Shown in pieces: positions 2 to 5,800 of a stretch of 64,000 bases of DNA; position 1 is the first letter of the stretch; every line of letters begins with the position of its first letter. A model generated the notes under the pieces. The model was not told where the DNA came from. It made no database searches and worked only from the letters and a program-made list of their open reading frames with translations. The stretch comes from Spirochaetota bacterium (GTDB taxonomy: Bacteria > Spirochaetota > Spirochaetia > Treponematales > UBA12059), in assembly GCA_022703505.1 (NCBI GenBank), contig JAKLDN010000004.1:1-64000 (forward strand), read 5' to 3'. Both the position numbers and the translations under genes were made by a program.

Positions 2-628
2 TACGCGGGTCTCTCGGTGGCGCGCCGGGGGAGCGACGCCCTGCGCCTGACGGTACCCCTGGGAACCCTCTCCCTGGCGGAGGCCGTTGCGGCCCCCGCC
101 TCGGATCCCGCCGAGGGAACCTACGCCCTCCGGGCCGCGGGCCTTCTGTTCGGCACCCTGGAGGGCTCCCTGGTAGCGGCCCGGGACGGGGCGTCTGACA
201 TGTGGATCGGCGGGGGGGACTTCAAGTTCGACCTGACATGGATCAGCTTCCACGGGGACGCGGCCTATTCCGCCCCGGACTCGGGCGGGGCCGGAAACCT
301 GCGGGCGGCCTTCGGATTCGATACATCCTTCGGGGACTTCGTCCTGGGGGCCGAGTACTACTTCAATGGCGCCCATGGGACCGATCCTCTCTTCCCGGGG
401 GCCCACAACGTCTACGCGGCCCTCTCCTGGAGCGCCGCGGACTACAGCACCCTGGCATTGTCCGCCCTGGGGGACCTGGAAGCCGGACTCTTCGCGGCCA
501 CCCTGACCTGGGCCTGGGACCTGGCCCAGAACGGGGGCCTCACGACCTACCTCCGGCTTTCCAACGGCCAGGCGGGGACTGAACAATGGACCGGCCAGGC
601 GGGGGTGCAGCTGGAAGTCAAATTCTGA
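2..628 (+). CDS. Outer-membrane beta-barrel protein, 3' part (5' end outside window)
   Basis: The reading frame is open to the left edge, so the start lies outside the window; a GTG at 17 is only an internal candidate. The visible 200 or so residues alternate polar and hydrophobic positions with many Gly, Tyr and Trp residues (for example FKFDLTWISFHGDAAY and LGAEYYFNGAH). It ends in LEVKF, a C-terminal phenylalanine typical of outer-membrane barrels recognised by the Bam machinery. No specific family is recognised. It resembles in style the barrel gene at 42752-44080. Role inferred: porin-like or export channel. Confidence 0.6.
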   Translation, partial: YAGLSVARRGSDALRLTVPLGTLSLAEAVAAPASDPAEGTYALRAAGLLFGTLEGSLVAARDGASDMWIGGGDFKFDLTWISFHGDAAYSAPDSGGAGNLRAAFGFDTSFGDFVLGAEYYFNGAHGTDPLFPGAHNVYAALSWSAADYSTLALSALGDLEAGLFAATLTWAWDLAQNGGLTTYLRLSNGQAGTEQWTGQAGVQLEVKF

Positions 629-650
629 CGAAAGCACCATTTCCGGATTT

Positions 651-819
651 AACCGCGGAGAACACGGAGAATGATACGGGAGGACAGGATAACAGGATGT
701 ACGAAAGGATTGACAGGATAGAAGTTAGATAAAATCAATTATGACGGATATCTTGTTGATCCTGTCGTTCCTATCCAGACTGGCTTCATCCTCCGTGCGC
801 TCCGTGCTCTCCGTGGTTG
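651..819. repeat. Composite inverted repeat, copy A
   Basis: AT-richer intergenic block between two genes. The outer arms are accgcggagaacacggag on the left and a matching ctccgtg..ctccgtggt series on the right. The inner arms carry acaggat repeats on the left and atcctgt on the right. It could fold into one long imperfect hairpin. Similar blocks lie at 2496-2714 and 28307-28523. No ORF in it has coding character. Confidence 0.7.
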
Positions 820-850
820 ATTCAAGAAAACATACTCCGGTCGCGGGCCG

Positions 851-1267
851 TCAGAGGTCGATGTCCGTCCGGAAGAGGGATCCCGCCCAGTCCGCGGCCG
901 CGGCCTCGAGTTCGGACGCCGCCGGGAGTTCGGCCAGGAAGCTGGAGGATTCCCGGATCAGGGACCGGGAGAGGTGCTCCGCGGCTGAACTGAGGAGCTC
1001 CCGGTCCGCCCGAAACCGGGCAAGGGCGGGAACCACAATGGCCGCGGCCAGGCAGGCGGCCAGGGCGGCCGCCCCGACGATCCGGACGCGGAACCGCCCC
1101 GGGCTGAACCGGGGATGCCGCGGGGATGCGACCGCGCCTTCGAGGTGCGCCGCCCCGTAGCCGAGCGCTCCGCCCGACCGGACTTTCTCGGACGCTTCGG
1201 CGGCCGTCTCCGCGGCCCGCCGGAGCAGGGCGCCGAGGGCCTTGTCCCGCACGTCATCCCGTCTCAT
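851..1267 (-). CDS. Single-TM protein, candidate anti-sigma factor
   Basis: 138 aa. The ATG overlaps the stop of the upstream sigma gene as ATGA, so the two are probably translationally coupled. The first 60 or so residues are charged and helical. One hydrophobic segment spans about residues 62-84 (IVGAAALAACLAAAIVVPALA), followed by about 50 residues that would be periplasmic. No zinc-binding anti-sigma motif (HxxxCxxC) is visible. Position directly after an ECF sigma gene and this topology suggest a membrane anti-sigma factor, similar in arrangement to CnrY of the CnrYXH system. The function is inferred from context, not from homology. Confidence 0.6.
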   Translation of the reverse strand: MRRDDVRDKALGALLRRAAETAAEASEKVRSGGALGYGAAHLEGAVASPRHPRFSPGRFRVRIVGAAALAACLAAAIVVPALARFRADRELLSSAAEHLSRSLIRESSSFLAELPAASELEAAAADWAGSLFRTDIDL

Positions 1268-1863
1268 GGTTCCACTCCTTCCTCCGCGAGGATCCCGCGG
1301 AGCCGGGTTCGCGCCCGGGCCAGACGGCTCTTTACGGTGCCCTCCGGCATCCGGAAGGCGTCCGCCAATTCCGCGACGGACGCCCCTTCCGCGTCCCGGA
1401 GGTAGACCAGGCTGCGGTCCGGATCCCCCAGGCGGTCCAAGGCGGCCAGGACGCGGTCCGCCAGGATCGCCCGCTCGGCGTCCCCGGCAGGGTCTCGCCC
1501 GGTTCCCTCCGTCCCGCCGGCGGCTCCGAGAACCGCGGCCCGCTCGGTCCGGCCCCGAGCCCGGGTTTCCTTTCGCAGGGTATCCAGGCAGGCCCGGCGC
1601 ACCACCCCGGCCAGGAACACGAAGGGCTCCGATTCGGCGCGGTATCCCCGGAGGGCGTCCAGCATCCTTCGGTAGCCCTCCTGGAGGGCGTCCTCCAGGA
1701 GCCCCGGGTCGCGCCGGGCCGCGGAACCCAGGACGGCGGCGGCCACCCGCCGAAGGGCGGGATCGTACCGCCGTACCAGGGCCGCGAAGGCCTCGGAATC
1801 CCGACCGGCGTTCCACCGGTGCACGTTCTCGCGGTCCGCCGCGGAACCGGGATCCCCGTTCAT
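1264..1863 (-). CDS. ECF-type RNA polymerase sigma factor
   Basis: 199 aa, the usual ECF length. Region 2 is recognisable (EAFAALVRRYDPALRRVA, then DALQEGYRRMLDALRGY). Region 4 is the helix-turn-helix LVYLRDAEGASVAELADAFRMPEGTVKSRLARARTRL. It starts 5 bases after the Spy/CnrX-like gene stop and overlaps the TM protein gene, so the three form one operon. It would direct RNA polymerase to stress genes when released by its anti-sigma factor. The targets are not known from this window. Confidence 0.9.
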   Translation of the reverse strand: MNGDPGSAADRENVHRWNAGRDSEAFAALVRRYDPALRRVAAAVLGSAARRDPGLLEDALQEGYRRMLDALRGYRAESEPFVFLAGVVRRACLDTLRKETRARGRTERAAVLGAAGGTEGTGRDPAGDAERAILADRVLAALDRLGDPDRSLVYLRDAEGASVAELADAFRMPEGTVKSRLARARTRLRGILAEEGVEP

Positions 1864-1868
1864 TCGGC

Positions 1869-2429
1869 TCAGAACAGGGCCTGCAGGATCTGGAGCATGG
1901 CCCGGATCTGGGCGGGGTTCTCGGACTTCGCGATGAAGTCTTCCAGCTTGCCCGCCCGCTCGGCCGCCTGGACCATCTGGGCGAGGCGGTACATGTTGGC
2001 CCAGCGCTCCGGTCCCAGCATCTCCTTGAGCCGGATGTTGCGCTCAGCCTGGATCATCCGCATCCGGAATTCCAGCTCCATGCTCTGCCGGAGAGTGCGC
2101 TCCACCTCCTGCCGGTTCACCCGCTCCTCCAGCATGAGCCGGGTCATCCGGGCCTGCATCTCCCGGAGCTCCGCCCGGACCCGGACCAGCTCCCCTTCCT
2201 GCTCCTCCAGCATCAGCCGGATCCGTTCCCGCTCCTCGGTCTTGAGCTGGAGCCGGTCCATTACCCGGGCCGCCTCGCCGGCGCCGTAGGCCGGGGCGGT
2301 CTCGGAACCCGTCCGGTCGCCCGCGGGGGCGGCGTCGCCCCCGCCCGCGCCCGCGCCCGCCTTCGGCCCCTGGGCCGACACGGAGAATACAAGACAAAGC
2401 GCCAGCAACGCCACGATGATCTTCTTCAT
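1869..2429 (-). CDS. Periplasmic Spy/CpxP/CnrX-like protein
   Basis: 186 aa. An ATG at 2429 is preceded by AGGAGG at good spacing; a longer frame upstream has no such site. Residues 1-19 form a signal peptide (MKKIIVALLALCLVFSVSAQ). After a Gly/Ala-rich linker, the rest is long charged helices with two LTxxQ-like elements (LQLKTEERERIRLML and LKEMLGPERWANM). This fits the Spy/CpxP and heavy-metal-sensor (CnrX) group of periplasmic helical proteins. As first gene of an operon with an ECF sigma factor and a membrane protein, a periplasmic sensor role is likely. It could instead be a chaperone. Confidence 0.65.
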   Translation of the reverse strand: MKKIIVALLALCLVFSVSAQGPKAGAGAGGGDAAPAGDRTGSETAPAYGAGEAARVMDRLQLKTEERERIRLMLEEQEGELVRVRAELREMQARMTRLMLEERVNRQEVERTLRQSMELEFRMRMIQAERNIRLKEMLGPERWANMYRLAQMVQAAERAGKLEDFIAKSENPAQIRAMLQILQALF

Positions 2430-2837
2430 ATCATCCTCCTGCCTACAGGTCGCCGCGGAGGCCGGTTCGGTTGCATAAATAGTTGCCAGGATTTTACCAC
2501 GGAGGTCACAGAGACCACGGAGAAAAGGCCTTAGAACCACCTATCGAACAAGATAAACATGATTGAGTATGGATGAACAAGATACGATCAATCGATGAAT
2601 CGTATTTCATATCCCCATCTTGTTAATCTTGTCCTATCTTGTGAATCCTGTTGGATCTATGGTTCCAGAGCCTTATTCATTCCCTCCTCCGTGCCCTCCG
2701 TGATCTCCGTGGTCGATTCCGGAAAGATCCAATCGCCCGCGCAGTTTACGGACCCGTGCGTTGTATGGCATACTCCTCCGCGCGGTCCGCGGCCCCCCGG
2801 TCCACGGACCCTTCTCGAACATACCTGGAGGAGCATC
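2430..2837. other. Intergenic region between divergent operons
   Basis: About 400 bases with no supported gene. It must hold the promoters of the minus-strand sigma operon and of ileS. Most of it is composite repeat copy B (2496-2714). No T-box leader, tRNA or clear promoter pair was recognised here; boxes before ileS are weak. Confidence 0.6.
2496..2714. repeat. Composite inverted repeat, copy B
   Basis: It begins accacggaggtcacagag and ends with ctccgtgatctccgtggt, inverted arms like those of copy A. The interior is low GC, with repeated acaagat on the left and atcttgt..tcctgt on the right. It differs strongly in base composition from the flanking genes. It is non-coding. Confidence 0.7.
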
Positions 2838-5800
2838 GTGTACAAGCCCGTGGATCCCAAGGTCAGCTTCCCGAAGATGGAGGAGGAGGTCCTCGCCTTC
2901 TGGAACGAGCACCGCGTCTTCGAGAAGTCCGTTGAACAGCGCGAAGGCAGCCCGGAGTACGTCTTCTTCGACGGCCCCCCCTTCGCCACCGGACTTCCGC
3001 ACTTCGGACACTTCGTACCGGGGACCATCAAGGACATCATCCCTCGCTACCAGACCATGAAGGGCAGACGGGTGGAGCGCCGCTTCGGCTGGGACTGCCA
3101 CGGCCTTCCCGTGGAGAACCTGATCGAGAAGGAGCTGGGCCTCAATTCCAAGACGGACATCGAGAAGTTCGGCATCCCCGAGTTCAACGAGGCCTGCCGG
3201 GCCTCGGTGCTCCGGTACGTCAAGGAATGGCGGACCATCATGACCCGGGCGGGGCGCTGGGTCGACTTCGACCACGACTACAAGACCATGGACCCGGACT
3301 ACATGGAGTCCATCTGGTGGGTGGTCAAGGCACTCTGGGACAAGGGCCTCATCTACGAGGGCCACTACATCCTGCCCTACTGCCCCCGCTGTTCCACGGT
3401 CCTTTCCAACCACGAGCTCCAGCTGGGGGGCTACAAGGACGTCCACGATCCGGCCATCACGGTGCGGTTCAAGGTCCGCTCGGTGCCGAAGGGCTTCCAC
3501 GACAAGACCCTGGCGGACGGTTCGGCCTACCTGGTCGCCTGGACCACCACCCCCTGGACCCTGCCCTCCAACCTGGCCCTGACCCTGGGCCCGGACGTGG
3601 ACTACGTCTGCGTCCGGGACGGGGCGGAACGCTACGTCCTGGCGGAGGCGCGCCTTTCCGCGTACTACAAGGACCCTGCGGCCCTGGAGGTCCTCTGGAA
3701 GAAGAAGGGCTCCGAGCTCAAGGGCATCGAGTACGAGCCGCTGTTCCCCTACTTCGAGCATACCCGGGCGGAGGGCTCCTTCCGTACCTTCAACGCCGAC
3801 TACGTCACCACCGAGGACGGCACGGGGATCGTGCACACCGCCCCGGGCTTCGGGGAGGACGACTACCAGACCCTGAAAGGCACGGGGATCCCCACGGTCT
3901 GCCCCGTGGACGCGGAGTGCCGCTTCACCGGGGAGGTGGCGGACTTCCGGGGCCTCTTCGTCAAGGACGCGGACAAGCCCATCATCGAGAGGCTCAAGGC
4001 CGAGGGCCGGCTCGTGAAGCGGGAGCAGTACCTACACGCCTACCCCCACTGCTGGCGCTGCGAGAGCCCCCTGATCTACCGGGCCGTGGGATCCTGGTTC
4101 GTCAAGATCGATCCCGTGAAGCCCATGATGCTGGACGCCAACTCCCGGATCCGCTGGGTCCCGGGGCACATCCAGACGGGCCGCTTCGGCAAGTGGCTGG
4201 AGAACGCCCGGGACTGGGCCATCAGCCGCAACCGCTACTGGGGCAACCCCCTTCCGATCTGGAAGTGCGACTCCTGCGAGGCGACGGTGTGCGTGGGGAG
4301 CCGTGGGGAGCTCAAGGAACTCTCCGGAGCCGAGCCTGTGGACCTGCACAAGCACTTCGTGGACGGGATCACCTGGAAGTGCTCCTGCGGCGGGACGATG
4401 CGCCGCATCCCCGAGGTCCTGGACTGCTGGTTCGAGTCGGGCTCCATGCCCTACGCCCAGGTACACTACCCCTTCGAGAACAAGGCCCATTTCGAGGCCA
4501 ACTTCCCCGCGGACTTCATCTGCGAAGGGCTGGACCAGACCCGGGGATGGTTCTACACCCTGACCATCCTGGCCGCCGCCCTCTTCGACTCCCCGGCCTT
4601 CCAGAACTGCGTGGTGAACGGCCTCGTGCTGGCCGCGGACGGGAAGAAGATGTCCAAGTCCCTGCGGAACTACACGGATCCCGTGGAGGTCATGGACCAG
4701 TTCGGGGCGGACGCCCTGCGCATCTTCCTCATGCACAGCCCCGTGGTGAAGGCCGACGACCTGCTCTATTCCGACGAGGGGGTCCGGGAGATCCTCCGGG
4801 GCATCCTGATCCCCTGGTGGAACGCCTACTCCTTCTTCGTCACCTACGCCAACATCGACAAGTGGCCCGAAACTTATCCGACCGCATTCGGAAGCGGTCC
4901 CGGCGGAGAGATCGCCGAAGCCGAAGGCTTCGGTGCCTCGGGAGCCGCCTTCGGCGGCTCCCGAGCGAATCCATTGGACCGGTGGATCCTCTCGGTGTGC
5001 GAGACCATGGTCGCCTCGGTGACCGAGGCCCTGGACGCCTACGACATGCAGAGGGCCATCGATCCCATCGTGGACTTCATCGACGCCCTGAACAACTGGT
5101 ACATCCGCCGCTCCCGCCGCCGCTTCTGGAGGAGCGGGGAGGATTCGGACAAGGCCGACGCCTACGCCACCCTGAACCGGGTCCTGCTGAGGCTCTCCCT
5201 GGCCGCGGCCCCGGTCGCGCCCTTCATCACCGACGAGATCTACCGCAATCTAAAGCGGCCCGGTATGCCGGAGTCCGTCCACCTGGCGGACTACCCGGTC
5301 TACGACGGGCGGTACAAGGACGAGGACCTGGAATGGAAGATGGCGGTGATCCGCAGGGCCGTCACCCTGGGCCGTGCCCTCCGGTACCAGCACAACCTCA
5401 AGATCCGCCAGCCCCTGGCCGCGGTCCACCTGGTGACCCGGGACGCCCGGGAGCGGGCGGTCCTCCTTGAAATGGAGGAGATCCTCCGGGACGAGCTCAA
5501 CGTGAAGCAGGTGGTCTTCCGGGAGGACGAGGAGGAGCTGGTCGAGTACCAGGCCAAGGCCAACTTCCGGGTCCTGGGCAAGGAGCTGGGCAAGGACATG
5601 AAGGCCGCGGCGGACCGGATCGAGAAGCTCGCCGGCAGACAGATCGCCAGCCTTTTGGAGGGCTCGGTCCTGGAGATCGAGGTCGCGGGCCGGCCGGTGG
5701 AGCTGACCAAGGACAAGCTGGACATCCGCCGCATCGAGAAGGAGAGCCTCAAGGTCGTGAACGAGGGGACCCTGACGGTGGCCCTGGACGCCGCGGTGAC

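Follow-up and report, generated by a model that had tools for sequence, protein, structure and literature searches.

A conserved three-gene module of a Spy-like protein, an ECF sigma factor and a one-TM protein in Spirochaetota: a candidate autoregulated envelope-stress switch

The window, by which we mean the whole stretch of 64,000 nucleotides that was analyzed, is the start of contig C9 in a spirochaete genome of 3.66 Mb and 14 contigs. Near its beginning, the minus strand carries the following features:

2449..2474, minus strand: ECF-type operon promoter GCAACC-N15-GCGAC, with the -35 element GCAACC at 2474-2469 and the -10 region CGAC at 2452-2449
2435..2440, minus strand: AGGAGG, the Shine-Dalgarno-like sequence of the Spy-like gene, from sequence reading
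1869..2429, minus strand: gene for a Spy/CpxP-like secreted helical protein of 186 aa, from a profile match and predicted fold
1264..1863, minus strand: ECF sigma factor gene, 199 aa, with Sigma70_r2 and Sigma70_r4_2
851..1267, minus strand: gene for a one-TM protein of 138 aa with its TM segment from residue 63, presumed anti-sigma factor

The layout is compact, with 5 bases between the Spy-like gene and the sigma factor gene and a 4-base overlap of the sigma factor stop by the start of the TM gene. Read from the sequence, these genes show a three-gene operon, in the order Spy-sigma-TM, headed by an ECF-type promoter motif. A preliminary description of this DNA had recognized a set made of a Spy-like sensor, an ECF sigma factor and a one-TM protein; the set was confirmed, with all ORFs at the positions listed above and in what corresponds to an X-H-Y order. 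The dN/dS ratio of the Spy-like gene was 0.19 against one congener, while against two congeners the sigma factor gene gave 0.32 and 0.33 and the TM gene 0.35 and 0.29. Values of 0.19-0.35 across the three genes indicate purifying selection.

The neighborhood read next to the module holds ileS and an operon encoding ABC, LolA-like and barrel-like proteins, with no RND or other efflux genes. The neighboring operon is convergent with the module and, per Pfam, encodes an ABC ATPase, FtsX/MacB permeases and a LolA_like (PF17131) protein; to these is added a protein without a Pfam match that was judged barrel-like by eye and whose end is at window positions 2-628. The coordinates of this operon are 2-628 in the window, 17-2351 in locus L031 and 3-4875 in locus L032, and a set resembling it by eye is also present in L033 and L037. 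Intergenic elements at 640-840 and 2490-2720 flank the three-gene operon. They consist of 9-nt units, (CTCCGTGNN)n, and ACAGGAT-type units, partly inverted, with inverted arms at 2489-2522 and 2687-2720. One unit of the flanking element, CTCCGTGNNCTCCGTG, occurs at 93 places in the window genome vs 0 in a reversed control.

The sigma factor matched the Pfam domains Sigma70_r2 (1.1e-9) and Sigma70_r4_2 (4.9e-11). Among solved chains, it matched sigma-H (6in7) at 9.2e-37, RpoE (1or7) at 7.8e-31 and CnrH (4cxf) at 7.6e-17, i.e., RpoE-type chains outscore CnrH. (For alignment A3, the sigma factor of L033, whose frame runs on, was cut at residue 200.) At E <= 0.001, the sigma profile has six matches in the window genome and PF13801 has one, so that a chance adjacency of Spy and sigma factor genes would be rare.

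The Spy-like protein matched the Metal_resist profile (PF13801) at 5.9e-6; the score of 26.9 bits falls short of the curated cut-off, which is 29.2. The same profile matched 23 of the 24 aligned Spy-like members at E <= 0.01. The N-terminus is signal-peptide-like by eye, and residues 50-184 were modeled as helices with high confidence. Searching the model against the PDB with Foldseek gave no match at E <= 0.001; the CnrX rows had E-values of 1.5-1.7, and their TM-scores, taken on the CnrX side, were 0.66-0.71. VIA-align ranked ZraP first (Z 11.4 over 78 residues), with CpxP (Z 8.9, 103 residues) and CnrX (Z 8.8, 99 residues) lying amid unrelated helical chains; the fold-match rows for the CpxP/Spy/ZraP family are 3lay and 3qzc. 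The fold match of this predicted structure is modest.

The metal ligands of CnrX include His. The mature window protein contains 0 His and 0 Cys, the 24 aligned members have 0-2 His and 0-1 Cys per protein, and no His, Cys or Met is invariant across them. It is because of this residue content that we disfavor the metal-sensing role considered for the Spy-like protein in the preliminary description. The residues that are invariant in all 24 members are Q92, E120, R124, Q127, R130, R142 and W143, and protein binding would appear to fit this conserved charged and aromatic set better than metal binding does.

Neither Pfam nor NCBIfam profiles matched the third protein of the operon at E <= 1. It has one TM segment, and across 24 members 43-74 residues precede the TM segment and a tail of 44-102 residues follows it. 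In all 24 the stretch before the TM segment is more positive than the stretch after it, which places the N-terminus in the cytoplasm (N-in). The zinc anti-sigma motif HxxxCxxC is present in 0 of 24 TM proteins in the order, the window protein included, as the preliminary description had said of the latter. A different pattern, [FYWL][VILA]xx[LIMV][WFMI], was found in the last 30 residues of 23 of the 24 proteins vs 0.8 expected on shuffling, the pattern having been written after viewing the alignment. The C-terminal motif of the window protein is WAGSLF, a variant of FVxxLW; for L037, the copy that entered the count is an upstream one beside FVAGLW. In the predicted structure, residues 3-31 form a helix, 33-54 are disordered, a long helix crosses the membrane at 56-112 and a C-terminal helix spans 117-131, all in a weak model (mean pLDDT 63.6, pTM 0.25). 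Sequence comparison of the family yielded no significant match among solved chains (best E 0.025) or among TM proteins outside the order (hhalign probability <= 47). The window TM protein is 65% identical to that of one congener, and for the same comparison the Spy-like protein is 97% identical.

A search with the sigma factor gave matches at E <= 4e-16 in 26 of the 146 relatives, and the Spy-sigma-TM order recurs repeatedly among the 29 relatives' loci read. Two loci, L048 and L050, were left out of the counts as other sigma factor operons whose anti-sigma proteins have CxxC by eye. A Spy profile (A2) matched 31 of the 146 relatives, from which 30 loci were read, the match in G118 having no locus and being left out; a sigma factor gene lies beside the Spy-like gene in 27 of these 30. 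Locus L077, which comes from the same genome as L052 and was counted once with it, is truncated where its contig stops; the other two are orphans:

L086, 644-1201: orphan Spy-like gene, genus g42, no sigma factor or TM gene adjoining
L087, 1375-1932: orphan Spy-like gene, genus g42, no sigma factor or TM gene adjoining

In the genomes of these orphans, which are only 87 and 82% complete, the best sigma factor matches (4.6e-5 and 2.3e-8) are on another contig, and no TM-profile match was found below 0.09. At E < 1e-10, the TM profile (A1) had matches in 26 of the 146 genomes, and 25 of the 26 matches directly adjoin the module sigma factor; the exception, G038, has its match on another contig and its sigma factor cut by a contig end. 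Since both the Spy and the TM profile were built from module members, these adjacencies are a matter of consistency and not an independent test. The TM gene follows the sigma factor gene in the module loci readable on that side, usually overlapping it. The gene order and counts above support the lineage-wide module suggested in the preliminary description and show that relatives retain the TM gene beside this sigma factor.

A sigma factor promoter motif had likewise been anticipated upstream of position 2429. The motif at 2474-2449, in which the 15-nt spacer is followed by one base before CGAC, answers to this and recurs in relatives. Within 250-bp regions upstream of Spy, the strict motif.AACC-N15-.CGAC was found in 20 of 25 modules (27 of 10,000 shuffles; 0/25 for the opposite strand) and then in 2 of 3 modules added later, for a total of 22/28 in the order; the modules without it are L034, L038, L016, L022, L025 and that of G013. 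As the promoter and C-tail patterns were both written after seeing the sequences, the first counts describe and do not test them. Later checks that do test the promoter motif came from Spy-like genes other than those of the modules. In genus g17, a second, more diverged Spy-like gene is located directly upstream of the module (L059, L060, L063-L066 and L068), and a relaxed form of the motif precedes six of the seven second genes (264 of 7,000 shuffles; 0/7 on the other strand), including those of G073 and G082, both of which miss the inner promoter. The second Spy gene of G107 starts outside its locus and was left out of this count. At the orphan Spy genes, the relaxed motif was found in 0 of 2 with 400 bp searched. 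With the motif standing before modules and second Spy genes and being absent at orphans, Spy is very probably a target of this sigma factor.

Genome-wide, the strict motif was counted against a reversed control at 33 vs 34 places in the window genome, 3 vs 4 in G009, 21 vs 7 in G044 and 54 vs 22 in G010, and the excess over control in the last two genomes means that the regulon may be wider there. For the window genome, no second credible promoter was found among the 32 places besides the operon's own. In one candidate gene, TolC-like by eye (L186), the motif falls within the coding region, and no convincing gene follows the motif places at L205, L207 and L210, that of L207 (G000:C11:101905-101930) presumably falling in a tmRNA tag region, by eye.

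All 21 motif places of G044 were read, and most lie inside long reading frames. The one credible promoter (L235, G044:C13:98658-99257) stands before the gene of a secreted 173-aa protein with weak resemblance to rubrerythrin and DUF2202 (0.011 and 0.019, below both cut-offs). Ten orthologs were found in 22 genomes (L241-L250), their starts being extrapolated. Three of the ten are preceded by the strict motif (34 of 10,000 shuffles), namely those of G044, G093 and G082, all in g17, where this amounts to 3/5 orthologs. The strict motif was not found before those of G049 and G030, also in g17, or before those of G000, G001, G095, G098 and G104, the region taken for G104 falling inside a coding-like stretch. 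Upstream of the orthologs of G000 (C9:199825) and G001 there is instead a TTGGCAC-N5-TTGC stretch, which by eye resembles a sigma-54 promoter. This secreted ferritin-like gene is likely an extra target of the sigma factor in part of g17, and Spy would therefore not be its sole output everywhere; judged by the motif, Spy is the recurrent predicted target.

The module was also followed beyond the order. The Spy profile retrieved 35 matches in 392 genomes, 26 of them outside the order, and 21 of the 26 were read as loci, the other five matches having no locus. An ECF sigma factor is present in all 21 loci read, with the order Spy then sigma in 19; L113 is arranged as sigma-TM-Spy, and L117 as sigma-TM with Spy about 0.8 kb further on. 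The protein encoded after the sigma factor contains a TM-like stretch in 20 of the 21, L105 ending at that point. Upstream of 18 of these modules, whose start codons were set by hand and which leave out L102, L113 and L117, a GAAC[CT] element with a CGAC or GGTC -10 was found in 14 (56 of 9,000 shuffles; 0/18 on the other strand). As a check with a profile from outside this analysis, PF13801 was searched against the same 392 genomes and matched in 137. Among the best 30 loci of these 137 genomes, an ECF sigma factor gene lies next to the Spy-family gene in 16, and 9 of the 14 loci without an ECF neighbor have 25-28% GC. Two genomes, G211 and G271, appear in both the best 30 PF13801 loci and the 21 loci of the Spy profile.

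HxxxCxxC proteins hold the slot of the TM protein in three of the 20 distant loci, namely L102, L103 and L110, and two of these proteins match zf-HC2 at 2.2e-4 and 3.6e-4, just under the cut-off. The third genes of L103 and L104 are related by eye, one with HxxxCxxC and one without, a pair which suggests that the zinc site was lost within the anti-sigma slot. That the one-TM protein is the anti-sigma factor of this sigma factor is very likely in view of where its gene lies and overlaps, its topology, the lack of both proteins in G088 and G095, and these HxxxCxxC slot occupants. Alternatively, it could be a small membrane protein whose gene simply shares a transcript with that of the sigma factor, which would agree with its having no family match and no solved homologue and with its fast evolution relative to Spy. 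We nevertheless hold this to be quite improbable, given that the protein follows the sigma factor in readable module loci, disappears together with it, and occupies a slot that elsewhere belongs to HxxxCxxC proteins.

We consider it fairly probable that the module is an autoregulated envelope-stress switch in which Spy serves as output and feedback sensor and the TM protein as anti-sigma factor. We strongly infer that the sigma factor reads the operon promoter and would therefore have Spy as its target, and that the anti-sigma factor holds the sigma factor at the inner membrane through its short cytoplasmic helix (residues 3-31). In the periplasm, the Spy-like protein would dock on the FVxxLW-type helix at the C-terminus of the anti-sigma factor and thereby keep the latter inhibitory. 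Damaged or unfolded envelope proteins would titrate Spy away and free the TM tail, upon which the anti-sigma factor may change shape or be cut and release the sigma factor. The released sigma factor would then transcribe spy, sigma and anti-sigma genes, and new Spy would restore binding, completing a homeostat. Sensing would presumably pass through the TM tail, whose FVxxLW-type motif could equally be a protease handle. A site-2-type M50 protease is encoded in the window genome, and as it is also present in all 14 control genomes, it lends weak support to cleavage.

More tentatively, and with some doubt, we propose that this switch may be a Spirochaetota-wide folding homeostat that works without metal sensing. 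The main target of its sigma factor would be a Spy-family chaperone, joined in one genus by a secreted ferritin-like protein, and an undescribed class of anti-sigma factor would gauge free Spy through the FVxxLW helix.

Spy might instead be output only, with the sigma/anti-sigma pair sensing some other envelope signal through the TM tail, as in CirYZ-Spy. Such an arrangement would accommodate the two genomes that keep Spy with no adjoining sigma factor of this kind and no TM match below 0.09, the nine loci of 25-28% GC that carry PF13801 genes without an ECF neighbor, and the motif before second Spy genes and the g17 ferritin-like gene. A tail of 44-102 residues, with no Pfam domain in the scanned members, is however small for a stand-alone sensor, and we regard this reading as possible but rather unlikely. 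We give far less credence to metal sensing of the CnrXYH type or a metal/redox variant, in which the Spy-like protein would bind a metal and the module would answer metal or oxidative stress, and rate this reading as very improbable. Its attractions are the name of PF13801, 'Heavy-metal resistance', the presence of CnrX among the fold matches, and a three-part logic as in CnrYXH (PMC4803752, PMC7689651). The protein may also have a Met-only metal site, with one Met column kept in 19 of 24 members, M125 invariant among the 10 family members compared, and 12 Met in the window protein. The second target of g17 is rubrerythrin/DUF2202-like, albeit below both curated cut-offs, which raises the odds of this reading slightly. 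Against these stand the missing His and Cys of the mature window protein, the 24-member alignment with no fully conserved His, Cys or Met, a neighborhood of ileS and the ABC/LolA-like/barrel operon with no efflux genes, and the ferritin-like gene of the window's own genus, which is without the motif. For the envelope-stress switch, then, damage to envelope proteins would be a more likely signal than metal bound by Spy.

Known systems share parts of this design. CpxP, Spy and ZraP are periplasmic helical proteins that can act as chaperone-like output and feedback inhibitor. The Cpx response resembles the module in having such a protein as possible output and feedback inhibitor; Cpx is a two-component system, whereas here an ECF sigma factor and an anti-sigma factor would take that place.

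The nearest parallel appears to be the CirYZ-Spy system of Phocaeicola vulgatus, a functional analogy by description rather than by protein sequence. There, cirY, spy and two other genes go up when cirZ, which encodes the anti-sigma factor, is deleted (PMC13114119). Genes for an ECF sigma factor, an anti-sigma factor and a Spy-like chaperone are found together in both, co-transcribed in Phocaeicola (PMC13114119) and read from sequence here. The freed sigma factor there raises its own gene and spy (PMC13114119), for which the counterpart here is a proposal. A further resemblance is that two Spy units with sigma/anti-sigma pairs occur in one genome (PMC13114119). The system further differs in belonging to Bacteroidota, in its order sigma-anti-sigma-spy and in its two further downstream targets (PMC13114119). 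The layout of such a system, an operon of the three genes behind an ECF-type promoter, is also that of the module here, with co-transcription predicted.

CnrYXH of Cupriavidus metallidurans combines a periplasmic sensor, an ECF sigma factor and a short one-TM anti-sigma factor in an operon transcribed by its own sigma factor (PMC7689651, PMC4803752, PMC4598750). CnrX is a transmembrane Co/Ni sensor, and CnrYXH drives efflux genes (PMC4803752, PMC7689651, PMC4598750); Met123 is a metal ligand of CnrX (PMC7689651). The sensor/sigma/anti-sigma logic in one operon is common to both systems. Cnr has the gene order Y-X-H and the module here X-H-Y, and while CnrX is transmembrane, the Spy-like protein here looks secreted and is without His or Cys. 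The cnr efflux genes are absent at the module, with no RND genes in the neighborhood read, and its sigma factor is closer in score to RpoE-type chains than to CnrH. By gene content and scores, then, the module is wired like Cnr but falls outside the Cnr family, and the Cnr kinship considered in the preliminary description is not supported. In Azospirillum brasilense, an operon of RpoE8, a hypothetical protein and a periplasmic heavy metal sensor is described (PMC12826043); this is an Alphaproteobacterium, and the operon is likened to the spirochaete module by gene description.

Searches of an open-licence library turned up no account of spirochaetes with an envelope circuit of the ECF/Spy kind, and a review of Leptospira sigma factors returned no match for 'Spy' (PMC12655853). 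If the reading proposed here is right, spirochaetes would gain a testable sigma factor, promoter, anti-sigma factor and likely output in one 1.6-kb operon, and the TM proteins would be a candidate anti-sigma family missed by Pfam and NCBIfam profiles. A sigma factor wired to a Spy-type protein would then recur in Proteobacteria, Bacteroidota and Spirochaetota.
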